Shown: in pieces, positions 2,905-10,966 of the stretch
Numbering within the stretch: position 1 is the stretch's first letter
How the letters are laid out: each line of letters begins with the position of its first letter
Assembly (NCBI RefSeq): GCF_025999835.1
Contig: NZ_AP025628.1
Location: forward strand, 2,604,001 to 2,668,000
From: Caldinitratiruptor microaerophilus
Lineage (GTDB): Bacteria; Bacillota; Sulfobacillia; Symbiobacteriales; ZC4RG38
Length of the DNA stretch: 64,000 nt
Direction: 5' to 3'
Position numbers and translations under genes: made by a program
Notes under the pieces: model-generated
Told to the model about the DNA's origin: nothing
Seen by the model: only the letters and a program-made list of their open reading frames with translations
Databases searched by the model: none

Positions 2905-4314
2905 CTAACCGGCCCCGCCCGGCGCCCCTGCGCCGTCTGCGGGCGGGCTGCTCCCGCCGCCGGTCATGCCGGTCGTGCCCCCACTGTTCCCTGTCGTCCC
3001 GCCGTTCGTGCCGCTACCCGTGGTTCCACCTGCGCCGGTCTGGCCGGCTCCAGCCGTGCCCTCGCTTCCACCCGGCTGGGTGCCAATCCCCGCCGCACCG
3101 CCGGCGGCTGCCCCGGCTTGCGAACTCCCGGCCGCCGAGCCGGCTCCGTCGCCGCCAGGAGCCGCAGGCGGCGCCTGGCCGGCCGCGCGGCCGGCGTTGC
3201 CCGCCTCCGAGGGGGAGCCGGGCTCACCGGCACCCGCCTTCGCCTTCGCCGCCTCCTGGGCCTGCCGGGCCTTCTCCGCCTCCTGCCGCCCCCGGTCCTG
3301 GGCCGCCCACCGCCGGACCACCGCCTCCAGCTCCGCCTGGTCCTCCCGCGCCTTCTCGAGGAACCGGGCCGGCGGCTCCGCGCCGAGGAGCATCCGGTAG
3401 GCCTCCGTCCGGAGCTTCACCAGGTCCGGGATGAGGTAATAGACGCCGTGCAGGTACCGGTCGTTCCCGCCGGCGACCAGGGTCTGCAGGTGCGGGCCCT
3501 GGGTTTGCGAACCCTGTGCCACTTCCTTGCCGGCCATCGCGAAGTCGAGCAGCTGACCGAGGCCCAGGTCGGTGTCCACGGCCTGGTAGAGGGACCTCAC
3601 CAGTCCCGGCAGGCGCACCACCACCGAGGGGCTCAGCGCCTTGTCCAGCAGGAGTTTCACGACCTCCTGCTGGCGCCGCATCCGCCCCCAGTCGCCCTCC
3701 TCGTCGTGGCGGAAGCGGGCGTACTTCAGGGCCTGTTCGCCGTTCAGGTGCTGGGGGCCGGGCTTGAAGTCGATCACGAGGCCGCCGTTGTCGTCGTAGG
3801 GGTCCACGTAGTACATCCGCTTCGGGATGTTCACGTCGATGCCGCCGAGCGCGTCGACGATCTTCTCGAAGCCCTGGAAGTCCAGCCGGGCGTAGTGGTC
3901 GATGGGGATGTCGAGCATCCGTTCCACGGTGGCCAGCGCCAGCTCCGTCCCACCGTAGGCGTAGGCGTGTGCGAGCTTGTCGTACCCGCGGCCGGGAATC
4001 TCCACTAGGGTGTCCCGTGGCAAGGAGATGAGGGTCAGGACCCGGTCCTTCGGGTGAACCGCCGCGACCAGCACGGTGTCGGATCGCCCCTTGGAGTCCT
4101 TGCGGTCGTCGACGCCCAGGATGAGAACCGTCGTGCGGCCGAGGCGAGCCGGCGAGGGCGCGCTCGGCCCTTCCGCCCGGGCCTCGGCCCCCGCGCGGAC
4201 GCCGACCCGCCCCCCGAAGCCGAAAAGGCGTCTCGCCGCCGCCCCCGCGATGCTGAGGGCGATCACCAGGGCCACCGCCGTGACCACGTACCAGCCGGAT
4301 CGGGAACCCTTCAT
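2905..4314 (-). CDS. LytR-CpsA-Psr (LCP) family cell-wall polymer ligase
   Basis: LCP enzymes transfer undecaprenyl-linked anionic polymers onto peptidoglycan outside the membrane. The protein has an N-terminal membrane anchor (YVVTAVALVIALSIAG). The catalytic domain carries ILGVDDR, the SDTVLV strand, ISLPRDT and the KYARFRHDEEGDWGRMRRQQ region, whose Arg and Asp residues bind the polyprenyl phosphate. After about residue 300 comes a long Ala/Gln region and then a Gly/Thr/Ser-rich tail with many TG[GN] steps, extending the protein to 469 residues. ATG at 4314 follows AGAGGTCGAG; a TTG at 4338 would add 8 residues. Confidence 0.9.
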   Translation of the reverse strand: MKGSRSGWYVVTAVALVIALSIAGAAARRLFGFGGRVGVRAGAEARAEGPSAPSPARLGRTTVLILGVDDRKDSKGRSDTVLVAAVHPKDRVLTLISLPRDTLVEIPGRGYDKLAHAYAYGGTELALATVERMLDIPIDHYARLDFQGFEKIVDALGGIDVNIPKRMYYVDPYDDNGGLVIDFKPGPQHLNGEQALKYARFRHDEEGDWGRMRRQQEVVKLLLDKALSPSVVVRLPGLVRSLYQAVDTDLGLGQLLDFAMAGKEVAQGSQTQGPHLQTLVAGGNDRYLHGVYYLIPDLVKLRTEAYRMLLGAEPPARFLEKAREDQAELEAVVRRWAAQDRGRQEAEKARQAQEAAKAKAGAGEPGSPSEAGNAGRAAGQAPPAAPGGDGAGSAAGSSQAGAAAGGAAGIGTQPGGSEGTAGAGQTGAGGTTGSGTNGGTTGNSGGTTGMTGGGSSPPADGAGAPGGAG

Positions 4315-4408
4315 CGACCGCTCGACCTCTTGCCCCAACTGCGAGCCGCTTCTCTGCGCGATCCGCTTGATCGAAGGTTAGACGGCGCGGACACGCACCC
4401 GGTTCCTC

Positions 4409-4437
4409 ATTATAGCCTTCCTGCCGGTCCCACGGAA
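4409..4437 (-). promoter_or_regulatory. Probable promoter of the LCP gene
   Basis: On the minus strand a perfect -10 TATAAT (4414-4409) lies 17 bp from a weak -35 TTCCGT (4437-4432). It sits between the terminator of the molybdoenzyme operon and the LCP start, about 95 nt upstream of the ATG. Confidence 0.45.
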
Positions 4438-4443
4438 CGGCAA

Positions 4444-4475
4444 GGGCTGGCGCCGCCCCGGGACGGCGCCAGCCC
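4444..4475 (-). terminator. Terminator of the dsrE-tusA-molybdoenzyme operon
   Basis: A perfect 12-bp stem (4444-4455 with 4464-4475) and an 8-nt loop lie 20 nt after the stop of the molybdopterin oxidoreductase. Confidence 0.75.
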
Positions 4476-4495
4476 CTGCAGAGGTGTACCGGCCC

Positions 4496-7462
4496 TCAGC
4501 CGTCCCCCGCCGGGGCGCAGGCGACCTCCTGGACCAGGCGGTAGGCCCTGGGCGACGGCTTGAGCGGCCGCATGAGCCAGTAGGGGCGGCGCAGGCCGCC
4601 CGGACCGGGCGCGGGCCGGGTCAGCTCGAGCCACCGCCGGAAGACCGCCCGGGAGCGGGCGGTATCGACGGCGATGTCCCCGTACCGGTCCTCGGGCCGG
4701 GCCTTGGTCACCCGTGCGCGCACGTGCCAGCAGTGGGCCCCGGAGATGGGGTCCGGCTGGACCGGGAAGATGAGGTTCTGGTGCACGCCCGCCTCCCGCC
4801 ACCCGATCCGGGAGGAGTCGGGGTCGGAGCTCGGGAAGGGCTGAGCCCCGTGGAGCTGCTTCATCTGCCAGTTCGTGCCTGCCCGCTCGAGCTTCACGAG
4901 GGACGAGTTCCACCGGTCGCTGCCGTGGTCCTCGTGGAGGCGCCAGCGGCCGAGGTGGTGGGAGCAGGCCACGACGCCGGGCCGGATGGCCTCCGTCACC
5001 CACACCCGGTCGACGAGGTAGCCGATCTCCGTCTCCACCCGTACCAGATCGCCCGTCCGCACACCCAGCCGCCGGGCGTCGCGCGGGTTGATCCACAGCG
5101 GGTTGTGGTGGGCGGTCTCGTAGAGCCACTTGGCCCCGTTGGTACGGGTGTGGATGAGCGTGGGCAGGCGGAACGTGGGCAGGAGGATGAACTCCGACTC
5201 GTCCCAGCGGATCCGTGCGTGGTGCACCTGGCTCGTGATGTGGGGCATGGCCTGGCGGCCGGCCTCGTCGAGCGGGTAGACGGGCAGCGCGTACTCGGGC
5301 CAGCCCCAGTCACGCAGGGTCGTGGAGTAGAACTCGAGCAGCCCCGAGGGGGTCGGGAAGCCGGTCCGCGCCTCGCCCTCCACCATGACCCCGACACGGT
5401 AGCGCCCCTCCCCGTCCTGGAAGGGCCCGGGATACGGGCGGTAGTTCACCTTGGGCGGCGGCGACGAGGTGTACACGCCGCCGTCCGGCCCCACGGCCGC
5501 CCCGGCGAGGACCTGGGGAGGCACGGGCCGCTCGTGCTCCTCGTACACGGCGCCCGGCAGCTCGAAGGCGCCATGCCGGCGCATGTACTCGAAGGGGGTG
5601 AGGCCCGCGCGCTCGGCGGCCTCCGGAAGCCCGGGCACGCCGTTCTCGAAGATCCAGCGGTAGTACTCGTCGATGCGGATCTTCTCGCCGGGCCGGTACG
5701 GCGACTCGTGGTGCTGCCGGACGCCCAGCGACCCGTCGGGGTCGATCCGCCACGAGAGCTCGATCCAGAACTCGTTTTCCTCCCACACCTCGCCCGGGTT
5801 GGCCAAGCGGGTGTCCCCGACCGGCCGGCCGAGGCGCTCCGCCGCCACCCGCCGCACGGGCTGGCGGAAGCCGACCCACTGCTTTGCGTGGGTCTCGTAA
5901 CTGTGCAGGTCGTGTCGCTCGGGCCCCAGGCCCATGGGAAGGACGTAGTCGGCGTACTGGGCGGTCTCGTTCCAGGTGGGCGTGAGTGCCACGTGCAGGC
6001 CGATGCGGTCCGACAGGAACATCTCGATCCACGAGAACCCGTCCGGGTTGGTCCAGACTGGGTTGTAGACCCGGGTGAAGTACACGTCCAGCTTCTTGTC
6101 GAGCCGCTCCAGGAGGTGCGGGAGCAGGAAGCTCATCTCGAAGTGGGAGAGCGGGTACTCCTTCGGCCAGTGGGCCTCGTTCCACGCCTCGATCGGGTGC
6201 GGGTGGGTCGGCGGCTTGGGCACGAACTTGGCGTAGGCGCTCGGCAGGCACCCGCCCTTCGTCCCGACGGATCCCGTGAGCACGTGCAGGAAGAACAGGT
6301 TCCGGGCGACCATCCACCCGCCGAGGTGCCCGGCCGCGGCGCCGCGCCAGATGTGGCTGGCGAAGGCGGTGCCCGCCCGGCCGATCTCCCGGGCGATGGC
6401 CCGGAGGGCGCCCGCCTCGACCCCGCACTCGGCGGCGGCCCACTCGGGGGTGTACGGCCGGTAGAGTTCCCGCAGGAGCCACAGGAAGCCGCCGAAGTCG
6501 TCCGCGGGCGGGAGGCGCTCCAGCCGGCCGAGGTCGGCCAGGTACTGCAGGTACTCCCGGTCCGCCATGAGTTGGCGCCAGTTCACCCACCGGCGCACGA
6601 AGTCGGTGTTGAGGTACCCCTCCTCGATGAGGACGTGGGCGATCGCCAGCAGCATCCCGGCCTCCGTGCCCGGCCAGGGCGACAGCCACCAGTCGGCCGC
6701 CGCCGCCGTGTTCGAGAGCCGGGGGTCGACGACCGCGATCCGGGCGCCCGCCTGCTTCGCCTCCATGATCCGCTGGGCGTGCGGGTTGAAGTAGTGTCCC
6801 GCCTCCAGGTGCGAGGACATGAGCAGGATGAACCGGGCGTTGGCGTGGTCGGGCGCCGGGCGGTCGATGCCCATCCACATCGCGTACCCCACGCGGGCGC
6901 CGGCCGAGCACACGTTCGTGTGGGAGTTGTGACCGTCCACGCCCCAGGTGAGCAGCACCCGCTCGGTGAACAGGTCCTCGCCCGGCCGGCCCACGTGGTA
7001 GACCACGCTGTCCCGGCGCCCGGCCAGGAGGGCCGCCCGGATCCGTCCGGCGATGTCGTCCAGCGCCTCGTCCCAACTCACGCGCTCCCACTTCCCCTCC
7101 CCGCGGGCGCCCGCACGCCGCAGCGGGTAGAGGATGCGGTCCGGGTTCGACACCTGGGTGACGGTCGCCGGGCCCTTGGCGCAGTTCCGACCCCGGCTGG
7201 CCGGATGCAGGGGATGGCCCTCGAGCTTGCGGATCTCCAGGGTCTGGACATCCACGTAGGCCAGGAGTCCGCAAGCGGCTTCGCAGTTGAAGCAGACGGT
7301 GGGGACCAGGGTGTACTCCCGTTCGACCCGCCGGGGCCACGCCCGGGCGTCGAGCTCTCGCCACCGTTCCCACTTCTCCGGTGCCGGGTGTGTCTCCAGG
7401 GAGCCGAACCCGGGGAAACGCCCCCGGGCGCCGACCTCCTCGGGGATCTCCATCCGCGCCAT
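4496..7462 (-). CDS. Molybdopterin oxidoreductase catalytic subunit (DMSO reductase family, PhsA/PsrA/SoeA-like)
   Basis: A 988-residue catalytic subunit of a complex iron-sulfur molybdoenzyme. Cys57, Cys60, Cys64 and Cys94 (CFNC-EAAC ... RNCAKG) form the N-terminal [4Fe-4S] site. Cys185 in HTNVCSAG is a candidate molybdenum ligand. The C-terminal part has the molydopterin-dinucleotide-binding fold (WINPRDARRLGVRTGDLVRVE). There is no twin-arginine signal, so the enzyme should face the cytoplasm, as SoeA sulfite dehydrogenase does and unlike PsrA or PhsA. It is the last gene of the operon after the fused iron-sulfur/NrfD protein, TusA and DsrE. A sulfur substrate (sulfite, polysulfide or thiosulfate) is inferred from these neighbours only. 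Confidence 0.85.
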   Translation of the reverse strand: MARMEIPEEVGARGRFPGFGSLETHPAPEKWERWRELDARAWPRRVEREYTLVPTVCFNCEAACGLLAYVDVQTLEIRKLEGHPLHPASRGRNCAKGPATVTQVSNPDRILYPLRRAGARGEGKWERVSWDEALDDIAGRIRAALLAGRRDSVVYHVGRPGEDLFTERVLLTWGVDGHNSHTNVCSAGARVGYAMWMGIDRPAPDHANARFILLMSSHLEAGHYFNPHAQRIMEAKQAGARIAVVDPRLSNTAAAADWWLSPWPGTEAGMLLAIAHVLIEEGYLNTDFVRRWVNWRQLMADREYLQYLADLGRLERLPPADDFGGFLWLLRELYRPYTPEWAAAECGVEAGALRAIAREIGRAGTAFASHIWRGAAAGHLGGWMVARNLFFLHVLTGSVGTKGGCLPSAYAKFVPKPPTHPHPIEAWNEAHWPKEYPLSHFEMSFLLPHLLERLDKKLDVYFTRVYNPVWTNPDGFSWIEMFLSDRIGLHVALTPTWNETAQYADYVLPMGLGPERHDLHSYETHAKQWVGFRQPVRRVAAERLGRPVGDTRLANPGEVWEENEFWIELSWRIDPDGSLGVRQHHESPYRPGEKIRIDEYYRWIFENGVPGLPEAAERAGLTPFEYMRRHGAFELPGAVYEEHERPVPPQVLAGAAVGPDGGVYTSSPPPKVNYRPYPGPFQDGEGRYRVGVMVEGEARTGFPTPSGLLEFYSTTLRDWGWPEYALPVYPLDEAGRQAMPHITSQVHHARIRWDESEFILLPTFRLPTLIHTRTNGAKWLYETAHHNPLWINPRDARRLGVRTGDLVRVETEIGYLVDRVWVTEAIRPGVVACSHHLGRWRLHEDHGSDRWNSSLVKLERAGTNWQMKQLHGAQPFPSSDPDSSRIGWREAGVHQNLIFPVQPDPISGAHCWHVRARVTKARPEDRYGDIAVDTARSRAVFRRWLELTRPAPGPGGLRRPYWLMRPLKPSPRAYRLVQEVACAPAGDG

Positions 7463-7504
7463 CGTGCTACCTCCCCTGCGCCGACGGTTCGTGCTCCGCC
7501 GCGC

Positions 7505-9052
7505 TCAGCTGAGTGGAACGCTCTGGCCGGCCTGGACGTAGGCGTGCTCGTACGCCAGGAGCCCGGCCAGGGCCAGCATGGCGCCGCTGGCGCCCCAGCC
7601 GGCGCCGGCGGCGAAGGCCGCGGCCGCCGCGAGCGCCAGGCCACCCCAGAAGAGCCGGGCGTAGGTGCCCCGGGTGAGGTGCCAGGCGGCGCGGGCGGCA
7701 TCCCGGGTGCCGTGCGGGATGGTCAGTTCGGACAGGACCACGGCCACGTGCGCGGCGGCGCCGCCCGCCAGGCCCCACAGGAGCGCCGGCCCGGCCTCCA
7801 CGCCGGAGGCGATCGCCAGGAGCAGCACCGCGGCCGCCCCGGCCACGAGGGCCTGCACCAGCAGGTGGATGGGCAGCAGCGGGTTCTGCCAGAGGTCCCG
7901 CGCCTTCGCCTGGGCAAAGAGGAAGGCCGTGTAGATGGCCGTCAGGGTGCCGAGGATCGCCCCGGGAACCCGTAGCCCGACCACCAGGCCCTGCCAGCCG
8001 GCCAGCCGGCCCAGCAGGTCCATCGCCAGGAGCGCACCGTAGGCGGTGATCACGTACGCGCCCCGCGCAAGCCAGGAGTTCCACCGCGGCCGCACGAGAA
8101 TGCGCCAGAACCGCTCCGGGTGGGCCAGGTCAGCGATGAGCAGGGCACCGGTCAGGCCCAGGAAGAGGAGGGCGACCGCCGTCGCCGCCAGCTCCACCCC
8201 GGCGCCCAGGCCCGCCCCGAACCAGGCGAGGAGGGCAGGGACCAGGTAGGCGCCGGCGGCCACCGACTTGGTCCACGTGTAGGCCGAAACCCGCCAGTCC
8301 CAGGGAGCGCCGTGGGGGACGTCGTACTGCAGGACGGCCGCCGCGGCGGTGCTGCGGGGCTCCCTCGCCGGCCGGCGGGTGTTGGCGAAGCCGCCCTCCC
8401 GCACCAGGAGCTCGAGCAGGAGGTCCGGCTCCGGCGGGTAGCGCTCGTGCTGCTCCGCCGTCGCGTGGATCGGGGGCAGGGCGGCCAGCCCCGGCACGCG
8501 CGTGAAGTCGCTGGCGTCGAGGTAGAAGAGCTTGGGGTTGGTCTCCTTCTCGGGCTTGCGCACCGCGACCTTGCCCGTGGCCACCAGCCGGGAGACCTCG
8601 CTCTCGGGGTCGGCCAGGTCGCCCACGATGATCGCGCGCTCGGGGCAGACCGCCACGCAGGCGGGCTCGAGGCCCTGGTCGATGCGATGGGCGCAGAAGT
8701 TGCACTTCTCGGCGCTGTGCGAGACGGGGTCGATATAGATCGCGTCGTACGGGCACGCGGCCATGCACGCCTTGCAGCCGATGCACGCGTCCCGGTCGAA
8801 GTCCACGATCCCGTCCGGGCGGCGGTACATGGCCGTGACAGGGCAGATGGCAGCGCACGGCGCGTCCTCGCACTGGTTGCAGCGGGTCACCTGGAAGTGC
8901 CGCTGGACGCTGGGGTAGGTGCCCACCTCGACCTGCTTGACGTAGGTGCGGGTGACGCCCAGCGGCACCTGGTGTTCGGACTTGCAGGCGATCGTGCAGG
9001 CGTGGCAGCCGATGCACTTCCCCTGGTCGATGACCTTGCCCCAGAGCGTCAT
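7505..9052 (-). CDS. Fused four-cluster ferredoxin and NrfD/DmsC-type membrane anchor
   Basis: One 515-residue protein joins what are usually the B and C subunits of a molybdoenzyme complex. Residues 1-140 hold sixteen cysteines in four groups (13/16/19/23, 58/61/66/70, 90/93/96/100, 117/120/132/136), the DmsB/PhsB pattern of four [4Fe-4S] clusters. Residues 140-245 are a linker. From about 255 to the end there are roughly eight hydrophobic segments of the NrfD type, which exchange electrons with quinone. It starts 3 nt after the tusA stop and is followed 42 nt later by the catalytic subunit. The frame is uninterrupted, so the fusion is as sequenced. Confidence 0.9.
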   Translation of the reverse strand: MTLWGKVIDQGKCIGCHACTIACKSEHQVPLGVTRTYVKQVEVGTYPSVQRHFQVTRCNQCEDAPCAAICPVTAMYRRPDGIVDFDRDACIGCKACMAACPYDAIYIDPVSHSAEKCNFCAHRIDQGLEPACVAVCPERAIIVGDLADPESEVSRLVATGKVAVRKPEKETNPKLFYLDASDFTRVPGLAALPPIHATAEQHERYPPEPDLLLELLVREGGFANTRRPAREPRSTAAAAVLQYDVPHGAPWDWRVSAYTWTKSVAAGAYLVPALLAWFGAGLGAGVELAATAVALLFLGLTGALLIADLAHPERFWRILVRPRWNSWLARGAYVITAYGALLAMDLLGRLAGWQGLVVGLRVPGAILGTLTAIYTAFLFAQAKARDLWQNPLLPIHLLVQALVAGAAAVLLLAIASGVEAGPALLWGLAGGAAAHVAVVLSELTIPHGTRDAARAAWHLTRGTYARLFWGGLALAAAAAFAAGAGWGASGAMLALAGLLAYEHAYVQAGQSVPLS

Positions 9053-9055
9053 CGG

Positions 9056-9295
9056 TCAGCCGCCCTTCCGGACGTAGTAGCGGAAGACCCCGCCGTCCTC
9101 TTCCCAGTGCAGCAGCTCGTGTTTCTGGCTCTCGCACCACGCCGGGATGTCGGTGACCGACCCGCGGTCGGTGGCGAGGACCTCCAGGATGGCCCCGGCC
9201 GGGAGGTCCCGGATCGCCCGGCTGGCGCGGACGACCGGCATGGGGCACAGGAGGCCCCGGGCGTCAAGGGTGGAATCCACCTTCTCCGGCTTCAT
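9056..9295 (-). CDS. tusA: TusA-family sulfurtransferase
   Basis: A 79-residue protein with the TusA/SirA signature LDARGLLCPMPVVRA; Cys17 of CPMP is the persulfide-carrying residue. A second cysteine lies in IPAWCESQ. TusA-like proteins pass sulfane sulfur between enzymes in the cytoplasm, in tRNA thiolation or, when next to dsrE genes, in dissimilatory sulfur metabolism. It is the second gene of the operon, between dsrE and the iron-sulfur/NrfD fusion, which favours the dissimilatory role. Confidence 0.9.
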   Translation of the reverse strand: MKPEKVDSTLDARGLLCPMPVVRASRAIRDLPAGAILEVLATDRGSVTDIPAWCESQKHELLHWEEDGGVFRYYVRKGG

Positions 9296-9319
9296 CTCGC
9301 GTGTTCCCCCCCACCCCGC

Positions 9320-9910
9320 TTACACGAAGAGCGTGACGTGGGCGCGCGACGCCTCGTTCAGGAACGCGGCCGCCCCGCCGACCTCGATCCCGTCGATCAG
9401 ATCCTCCCGCTTGAAGCCCAGGACGTCCATCGTCATCTGGCAGGCGATCAGGCGGACGCCGCTCTCGATGCAGACGTCCCGGAGCTCGGCGACGGAGGGG
9501 ACCCCCTTCTTCCGGAACATGTCGGACATCATCCAGGTGGCGGCGCTGCGCACGCCGGGCAAGGCGGCCACCAGGTTGGGAACCGGGATGGGCATCGCCG
9601 GGTTACCGATGGGGTCGACCTGAACCCGCAGGTCCCGCTTCAGCAGGTTCAACCCGTAGAAGGTGAAGAAGACGGCCGCGTCCATGCCCATGGCGGCGGC
9701 GGCGGAGGCCAGGATGAACGGCGGGTAGGCCCAGTCGAGTGTACCCTTTGAGGCGATGATCCGGCACGTCTGCCTGGCGCGGTCACCCTCCAGTGCCTTC
9801 CGAACCTCCGCGGCCACCAGATCCGGCAGCCGTTTCCTGAGGTAGGCCTCGACGGCCTCCTCAAGGGTCCGCCCGGCGGGCACCTCACCTGCCCGGTCCG
9901 GCACAGCCAT
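9320..9910 (-). CDS. DsrE/DsrF-like family protein (DsrE2/DsrE3 type)
   Basis: A 196-residue protein. Residues about 1-45 are a helical extension (LEEAVEAYLRKRLPDLVAAEV). The DsrE fold follows: ASKGTLDWAYPPFILASAAA, MDAAVFFTFYGLNLL, then IACQMTMDVLGF with the single conserved cysteine expected to carry sulfur, and a C-terminal GGAAAFLNEA segment. DsrE-type proteins act as sulfur carriers partnered with TusA. ATG at 9910 has AAAGGAGTGATC upstream. First gene of the sulfur/molybdoenzyme operon. Confidence 0.88.
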   Translation of the reverse strand: MAVPDRAGEVPAGRTLEEAVEAYLRKRLPDLVAAEVRKALEGDRARQTCRIIASKGTLDWAYPPFILASAAAAMGMDAAVFFTFYGLNLLKRDLRVQVDPIGNPAMPIPVPNLVAALPGVRSAATWMMSDMFRKKGVPSVAELRDVCIESGVRLIACQMTMDVLGFKREDLIDGIEVGGAAAFLNEASRAHVTLFV

Positions 9911-9923
9911 CGGTGATCACTCC

Positions 9924-10050
9924 TTTCTTGATTAAGCAGTTTTGCAAGCAAGAAGTACGATTGGCGGGTTGAACGCCTTTTCCTGCCTCGGGCAAACGTG
10001 TCGTTACCTCCAATTCTACGGCGAGACCCGTTACTTTCGCAATCAAGAAA
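9924..10050. repeat. 10-bp inverted repeat flanking the dsrE promoter region
   Basis: TTTCTTGATT at 9924-9933 is matched by its exact complement at 10041-10050, with 107 bp between. The two arms bracket the whole region from the -35 to the dsrE ribosome binding site. It could be a two-site operator for the IclR-type regulator, or chance. Confidence 0.35.
10013..10042 (-). promoter_or_regulatory. Candidate promoter of the dsrE operon
   Basis: On the minus strand TTGCGA (10042-10037), an 18-bp spacer and TAGAAT (10018-10013) form a moderate sigma-A promoter about 100 nt upstream of dsrE. The same -10 hexamer TAGAAT is used at the iclR promoter. Confidence 0.4.
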
Positions 10051-10162
10051 TTGGTCGCCAGAGAAGGCGAGCCGCCAAGGCGGCCGGAAACGCAAGCGCC
10101 CTGCCGGGTTGGCGCTCACCCGGGCAGGGCGCAGACTGCCCTTCCGAACCGGAGCGATCGAC

Positions 10163-10966
10163 TTACGAAATCGACGCGGAGGCCGGCCCGCGGCCGGGCC
10201 GCCAACCCACCTGGCGGGACATCTCGGCTGCGGCCCGGGTGACGAGCGGGGCCAGCGCCGCCGGGCCGCCCTCGCCGAGGCGGAAGAGCGGCACGCTGAT
10301 GCTGATCGCCGCCACCTGCCCGCGCGGGTCCCGCACTGCGGCCGCCACGCAGGCGATCCCCTCCATGGACTCCTCCCGGTCGATGGCATACCCGCGCCGC
10401 CGCACCCCTGCCAGGTCGATGAGCAGGCCCCGCCGCGTGGTGATGCTCCGGGGCGTCATGGCCGGCAGCGGGTCGGAGCCGTAGCGGCGCTCCACCTCGC
10501 CGTCCGGCAGGGTCGCCAGGAGCGCCTTGCCCAGGGCCGTGCAGTGCGCCGGGACCCGCTTCCCCACCGCGGACACCAGCCGGACCGGCCGCACGCCCTC
10601 CTGCTTGGCCACGTAGACGATCTCGGTGCCCTCCAGGACGGCCATCTGCACGGTCTCGCCGGTCTCCTCCACGAGCTGGCGCGCCACGGCGTTGAAGGAC
10701 CGGAAGAGGTCGTTGTGCTCCAGGTACGCGTAGCCCACCTCGAAGGTGCGAAGGCCGAGCCGGTATGGCCCGCGGCCGGACCGGGACACGTACCCCTCCG
10801 CCTCCAGGGTGTACAGCACAGGGAACAGGCTGCTTTTCGGGGCCCCCAGCTCCCGGCTGAGGTCCGCCAGGCTGAGCCCGTCCGGATACCTGCCGAGCAC
10901 CTCCAGCACCTGCATGGTCCGGGCCACCGTCTGGGCGTAGTAGGCGTTCGCACGCTCCACGGCCAT
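10163..10966 (-). CDS. IclR-family transcriptional regulator
   Basis: A 267-residue protein with the IclR layout: an N-terminal winged helix (residues about 12-75, GLSLADLSRELGAPKSSLFPVLYTLEAEGYV) and a C-terminal effector domain (ETGETVQMAVLEGTEIVYV, RVPAHCTALGKALLA, CVAAAVRDPRG). The helix-turn-helix reads SSLFP where many IclR proteins have STVHR. It lies upstream of and co-directional with the sulfur/molybdoenzyme operon, which makes it the likely local regulator. The effector is unknown. Confidence 0.92.
   Translation of the reverse strand: MAVERANAYYAQTVARTMQVLEVLGRYPDGLSLADLSRELGAPKSSLFPVLYTLEAEGYVSRSGRGPYRLGLRTFEVGYAYLEHNDLFRSFNAVARQLVEETGETVQMAVLEGTEIVYVAKQEGVRPVRLVSAVGKRVPAHCTALGKALLATLPDGEVERRYGSDPLPAMTPRSITTRRGLLIDLAGVRRRGYAIDREESMEGIACVAAAVRDPRGQVAAISISVPLFRLGEGGPAALAPLVTRAAAEMSRQVGWRPGRGPASASIS

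Follow-up and report, generated by a model that had tools for sequence, protein, structure and literature searches.

A molybdoenzyme encoded behind DsrE2 and TusA in Caldinitratiruptor microaerophilus is a probable cytoplasmic sulfite:quinone oxidoreductase distinct from SoeABC

What reaction is catalyzed by a respiratory molybdoenzyme whose genes directly follow those of two sulfur-carrier proteins? The question is raised by a locus in a 64,000-nucleotide stretch of contig NZ_AP025628.1 (the window) from Caldinitratiruptor microaerophilus, a Bacillota relative of Symbiobacterium. An initial annotation had read four genes here, encoding DsrE, TusA, a ferredoxin-NrfD fusion and a catalytic subunit, and all four lie on the minus strand where it had placed them, each clearly assigned by Pfam:

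9320..9910, minus strand: dsrE2, DsrE2-type sulfur-carrier protein of 196 amino acids with an invariant Cys157
9056..9295, minus strand: tusA, TusA sulfur-carrier protein of 79 amino acids with a CPMP motif (Cys-Pro-X-Pro) containing Cys17
7505..9052, minus strand: ferredoxin-NrfD fusion, electron-transfer and membrane-anchor subunit of 515 amino acids
4496..7462, minus strand: catalytic subunit of 988 amino acids, DMSO-reductase family, of the type with a molybdenum (Mo) bis-molybdopterin guanine dinucleotide cofactor

The two-gene enzyme formed by the fusion and the catalytic subunit is, with a probability that we put at roughly 0.7, a membrane-bound, cytoplasm-facing sulfite:quinone oxidoreductase of the type named polysulfide-reductase-like complex 3 (PSRLC3), which would do the job of SoeABC without being SoeABC. 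Cytoplasmic sulfite would be oxidized to sulfate at the Mo-bis-pterin center, and the electrons would pass from the proximal [4Fe-4S] cluster through the four ferredoxin clusters of the fusion to quinone at the NrfD domain; sulfite oxidation by quinone is strongly downhill. TusA and DsrE2, elsewhere together with rhodanese, sHdr, reverse Dsr or persulfide dioxygenase, would move sulfane sulfur and thereby generate sulfite. A possible route in the window genome is that thiosulfate, by giving its sulfane sulfur to TusA/DsrE2, would release sulfite directly. Transport of sulfate or sulfite would fall to the SulP or TauE proteins whose genes adjoin those of the enzyme in many genomes.

The composition of the four proteins fits a respiratory complex with its carriers. 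The catalytic subunit contains the Molybdop_Fe4S4, Molybdopterin and Molydop_binding domains; no NCBIfam equivalog matched it near the respective cut-off, and its sequence matches in the PDB were weak. Its Fe-S cysteines (C57, C60, C64 and C94) and the predicted Mo ligand C185, in the numbering of the 988-amino acid protein, are invariant in 85 full-length homologs. The fusion joins an N-terminal four-cluster ferredoxin (Fer4_11) to a C-terminal NrfD-type membrane domain (NrfD, PF03916), and all 16 cysteines of the four [4Fe-4S] clusters are 100% conserved among 134 homologous fusions. DsrE2 matches PF13686 (E 3e-50) and reaches 203 bits against the NCBIfam DsrE2 model NF047629, just below the cut-off of 210, and its Cys157 is kept without exception among the DsrE2 copies compared. 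TusA matches PF01206 (E 1e-26) and shares its CPMP motif with the TusA copies at neighboring loci. The gaps between the four genes, from dsrE2 to the catalytic gene, are 24, 3 and 42 bases.

The residue after the Mo-ligand cysteine is an invariant serine in the homologs of the catalytic subunit (the window family), whereas formate dehydrogenases have a histidine there. This bears on the idea that the enzyme is a formate:quinone oxidoreductase or another non-sulfur respiratory enzyme, which we regard as very improbable. The idea could appeal to weak formate dehydrogenase profile matches and to an overlap in phyla with some uncharacterized NrfD complexes of Chlorobi, Chloroflexi and Actinobacteria, tentatively called 'FqoABC' in a review (PMC8076601); however, besides lacking the expected histidine, the window family forms a clade that excludes FdnG and FdhF, and formate oxidation would leave its sulfur neighborhoods unexplained.

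To which side of the membrane does the enzyme face? None of 86 catalytic-subunit homologs carries a twin-arginine translocation (Tat) motif, and one Tat-like match was seen among the 134 fusions. Because Tat signals are missing from both gene products, we place the enzyme on the cytoplasmic side, as the initial annotation had done; the orientation rests on these missing signals, since the helices of the NrfD domain could not be made out by hydropathy and positive-inside analysis.

The genomic company of the enzyme argues for a role in sulfur metabolism. A first scan found SulP sulfate permeases, TauE exporters, LysR regulators, sHdr, LbpA and lipoate-ligase genes, and DsrE2/TusA near the enzyme. 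Because those loci had been picked by similarity to the window, the survey was repeated on loci drawn evenly from three phyla, 59 of which had enough flank to cover 6.5 kb around the catalytic gene. At least one sulfur gene lies within this distance at 44 of the 59, which bears out the link to sulfur metabolism drawn for the window: DsrE2/TusA at 23 loci, SulP at 16, persulfide dioxygenase-type proteins at 15, TauE at nine and LbpA or lipoate ligase at eight. The SulP gene often stands directly downstream of the enzyme, genes for sHdr, LbpA or lipoate ligase adjoin it in several loci, and persulfide dioxygenase-rhodanese-type proteins are encoded beside it in some. LbpA is present in 12 of 79 family-bearing genomes. 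We infer the direction and the substrate from these partners, because each of reverse Dsr, sHdr and persulfide dioxygenase is a source of sulfite in the cytoplasm, and because the SulP and TauE families include sulfate or sulfite carriers. The conserved sulfur-oxidation module as such is real. At one locus (L209), presumably that of Chloroflexus aurantiacus J-10-fl, the complex has a LysR gene alone among the scored neighbors.

A fuller version of this arrangement occurs in 11 genomes of a Bacteroidota-type sample, where the fusion and catalytic genes are followed by tauE, a small membrane gene, dsrE2, a rhodanese gene, tusA, dsrN, dsrC, dsrA and dsrB. Read further in three of these genomes, the series goes on with dsrL, dsrEFH, dsrM, dsrK and more genes (dsrMKJO-type), and dsrA, B, C, K, M and O were confirmed by NCBIfam. 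Such a layout is that of the reverse-dsr operons of green sulfur bacteria. PSRLC3 is made of two genes (PMC5473276) and has been described as an alternative sulfite-oxidizing system (PMC6338057). Since the two-gene form stands directly upstream of the reverse-dsr operon, we would equate the window family with PSRLC3, with which it shares the two genes, the company of a dsr system and the proposed oxidation of sulfite. Homologs in dsr-bearing genomes are about 57-60% identical to the catalytic subunit of the window and have the same fusion and the same dsrE2/tusA neighbors; the window differs in that its carriers are encoded upstream of the enzyme, no dsr operon lies beside it and its host belongs to the Bacillota. 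Thus, the initial annotation's statement that no characterized complex with this gene content was known has to be amended: a two-gene enzyme beside dsrE2, rhodanese, tusA and dsr matches PSRLC3, which has a name, though it is not known to have been characterized biochemically. Already named in green sulfur bacteria, this kind of enzyme now proves to be widespread, occurring where there is no SoeABC. One locus with the complex beside dsr (L168) is presumably that of Chlorobium luteolum DSM 273. Chlorobium luteolum has DsrAB and lacks AprAB and Sat (PMC5498476). Between tauE and dsrE2, a hydrophobic protein of 141 amino acids (L177:6731-7153), conserved in about 15 loci, is without a Pfam match.

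The fold of the catalytic subunit leaves room for a reaction in the opposite direction. Its AlphaFold model (predicted local distance difference test score 84.7) is nearest to Thermus PsrA (Z score 27.9) and ArrA (27.6), which are tied. Such a fold is as expected for a Cys-ligated Mo enzyme that would feed or drain quinone via an Fe-S subunit; it carries no information on the direction of the reaction. PsrABC and PhsABC also share with the window family a cysteine at the Mo-ligand position and, in PsrC, an NrfD anchor; however, they are Tat-exported, periplasmic and reductive, and are about 24% identical to the window family, which has no Tat motif. A quinol-driven sulfur or persulfide reductase, in which TusA/DsrE2 would present sulfane sulfur to the Mo site for release as sulfide, as in PsrABC and Sre-type enzymes, could account for the likeness to PsrA, for the adjacency of dsrE2 and tusA in the window and for the NCBIfam PhsA model among the best sub-cut-off matches of the catalytic subunit. 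We nonetheless consider a reductase unlikely, given that the genes around the enzyme in other genomes belong to oxidative systems (reverse Dsr in green sulfur bacteria, sHdr-LbpA and persulfide dioxygenase) and are accompanied by those of sulfate/sulfite transporters, and that some family-bearing genomes lack DsrE2 or TusA.

If the enzyme oxidizes sulfite, is it a form of SoeABC? The SoeABC complexes of Allochromatium vinosum, Aquifex and Sulfobacillus share with the window family a cytoplasmic Mo subunit without a Tat signal, a ferredoxin subunit, a membrane anchor and a link to quinone, and both would occupy the same place in the reverse Dsr (rDsr) and sHdr pathways. In SoeABC, however, B and C are separate and the anchor is of the DmsC/YnfH type, whereas the window family has B and C fused, with an NrfD anchor, and encoded before A. 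The SoeA reference used here (L124) is that of what we take to be Sulfobacillus acidophilus DSM 10332, and its relatives were taken from Azospirillum and Paraburkholderia plasmids, where the order is A-B-C, the anchor is of the DmsC type and one set lies near the sulfoacetaldehyde gene xsc. The position of L124 fits TPY_0113 of PMC5114278.

In trees of the catalytic subunit, a check that the initial annotation had called for, the window family is a clade of its own with a support of 100, and SoeA, PhsA, FdnG and FdhF fall outside it; PhsA groups with a paralog from the window's own genome, and SoeA with TtrA, the TtrA and ArrA family matches used as references having stayed below the NCBI cut-offs. 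An approximately unbiased (AU) test rejects one clade of the window family, a Sulfurovum homolog and SoeA (p = 0.007). An earlier AU test with the Sulfurovum homolog left outside had given a p of about 1e-36, and it was repeated with that homolog inside because the first constraint was unfair to the hypothesis of a common clade with SoeA. In addition, SoeA was found in none of the 79 family-bearing genomes tested, and was found in the positive control. Membership in SoeABC is thus ruled out by the tree, the anchor type, the gene order and the absence of SoeA, and the description of the complex as a SoeABC-like enzyme reduced to two subunits does not hold, as none of the three modules is missing (two are fused) and the catalytic subunit belongs to a clade distinct from SoeA. 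The nearest outgroup, 39% identical, lies on a Sulfurovum mangrovi plasmid (L122:9001-12052) with a separate NrfD protein and a TorD chaperone; the match consists of two aligned pieces without an annotated coding sequence, and genes for a rhodanese and a sulfate adenylyltransferase are nearby. The window genome itself contains further Mo enzymes of the PhsA, DmsA and TtrA types (L034, L035, L036 and L151).

The absence of SoeA matters because in many sulfur-oxidation pathways the final step that yields energy is the oxidation of sulfite in the cytoplasm, for which SoeABC is the usual marker. Among the Proteobacteria examined in a previous study, all sHdr and rDsr oxidizers carry soeABC (PMC6397845). 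Since soeABC is thus the usual partner and SoeA is absent here, the family-bearing sHdr and rDsr genomes need another sulfite oxidase. If the window family consists of sulfite dehydrogenases, it would close the gap at the end of the sHdr and rDsr pathways in organisms that have no SoeABC, and sulfur-oxidation capacity would have been overlooked in Chloroflexota, Actinomycetota, Gemmatimonadota, Bacillota, Chlorobi and haloarchaea.

How closely are the carriers tied to the enzyme? The order dsrE2-tusA-fusion-catalytic recurs on plasmid pRHL3 of Rhodococcus jostii, with tight spacing nearly identical to that in the window, and in another actinomycete locus (L203), so the four-gene arrangement is not due to chance. 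We found no paper that names this operon in a literature search. DsrE2/TusA genes at 23 of the 59 evenly drawn loci compare with about 0.5 expected from their genome-wide density, a linkage whose significance a binomial p-value overstates because the loci share ancestry and are not independent events. The co-conservation of dsrE2 and tusA with the enzyme extends across phyla. On the other hand, DsrE2 was not found in eight of 20 genomes with the enzyme, and TusA was not found in three of 21, one of the three (L110) being on a complete-chromosome contig. Given these genomes without one or the other carrier, DsrE2 and TusA are probably accessory, feeding the pathway rather than serving as an obligate substrate. 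Thus, of the two substrates that had been suggested for the window enzyme, sulfite is now the best supported and a protein-bound persulfide is weakened.

The same counts speak to a more radical possibility, in which the Mo enzyme would directly oxidize a persulfide or thiosulfonate bound to TusA/DsrE2, with sulfite or sulfate as the product; the four genes would then make up a complete pathway. Enzymatic chemistry of this sort on a protein-bound sulfur carrier would be new, and sHdr, Dsr or a dioxygenase would not be needed. The shared four-gene order in the window, R. jostii and L203, the matching spacing in R. jostii and the lack of LbpA in the window genome would all fit, but such a reaction is quite unlikely given the genomes with missing carriers and the dedicated sulfite-producing systems that adjoin the enzyme in many others. 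Gene sets of the rhd-tusA-dsrE2 kind contain the same types of carrier, and in many loci with dsr genes the series dsrE2-rhodanese-tusA comes after the enzyme; the set in the window differs in having no rhodanese gene and in being placed ahead of the Mo enzyme in one operon. About 170 kb from the window operon, the same genome encodes another DsrE-TusA pair (L226:8604-9899), behind which comes a universal-stress-protein-like gene.

Several points weigh against sulfite oxidation by a PSRLC3-type enzyme in the window. No scored sulfur gene was found at 11 of 20 Chloroflexota loci, SulP proteins transport other anions too, and LbpA was not found in the window's own genome. The match with PSRLC3 is one of architecture and gene position, and the catalytic fold is nearest to polysulfide and arsenate reductases, which run reductively. 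We know of no assayed enzyme from the clade of the window family, and the papers found describe none. An HdrD-like match in the window genome (36% identity) was rejected as an sHdr marker, being common in relatives and unspecific, unlike the more specific LbpA.

The family is large. A single scan of named genomes yielded at least 562 relatives, the best 80 of which are 55-69% identical; in nearly all of them the fusion gene immediately precedes the catalytic gene, and the same arrangement holds for 50 of another 60 loci, sampled evenly from three phyla. In genomes drawn evenly from three phyla, the pair is present in 26 of 118 (~22%), 21 of 149 (14%) and 23 of 121 (19%), with full-length matches to the catalytic subunit in the phylum samples at 56-65% identity. 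The two-gene enzyme is also encoded on a Thermomicrobium roseum megaplasmid, on R. jostii pRHL3 and on haloarchaeal plasmids, and annotated plasmids label the catalytic protein merely 'molybdopterin-dependent oxidoreductase'. Viral contigs contained no relatives of the enzyme. On haloarchaeal plasmids, such as that of Natrinema halophilum (L121), the complex (about 50% identity) is followed by a Mrp/NBP35 ATPase, as in R. jostii, which is possibly an Fe-S assembly helper for the enzyme.

Upstream of the operon are two further features:

10013..10042, minus strand: candidate sigma-70-like promoter of the four-gene operon (weak evidence)
10163..10966, minus strand: IclR-family regulator (Pfam HTH_IclR and IclR_C)

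The promoter candidate, located before dsrE2, is the sole minus-strand site of its kind in 4200-10300, with 0.2 expected by shuffling. A LytR-type gene lies downstream of the catalytic gene. The IclR gene is 252 bases upstream of the operon on the same strand, and its product is a possible regulator of the four genes.

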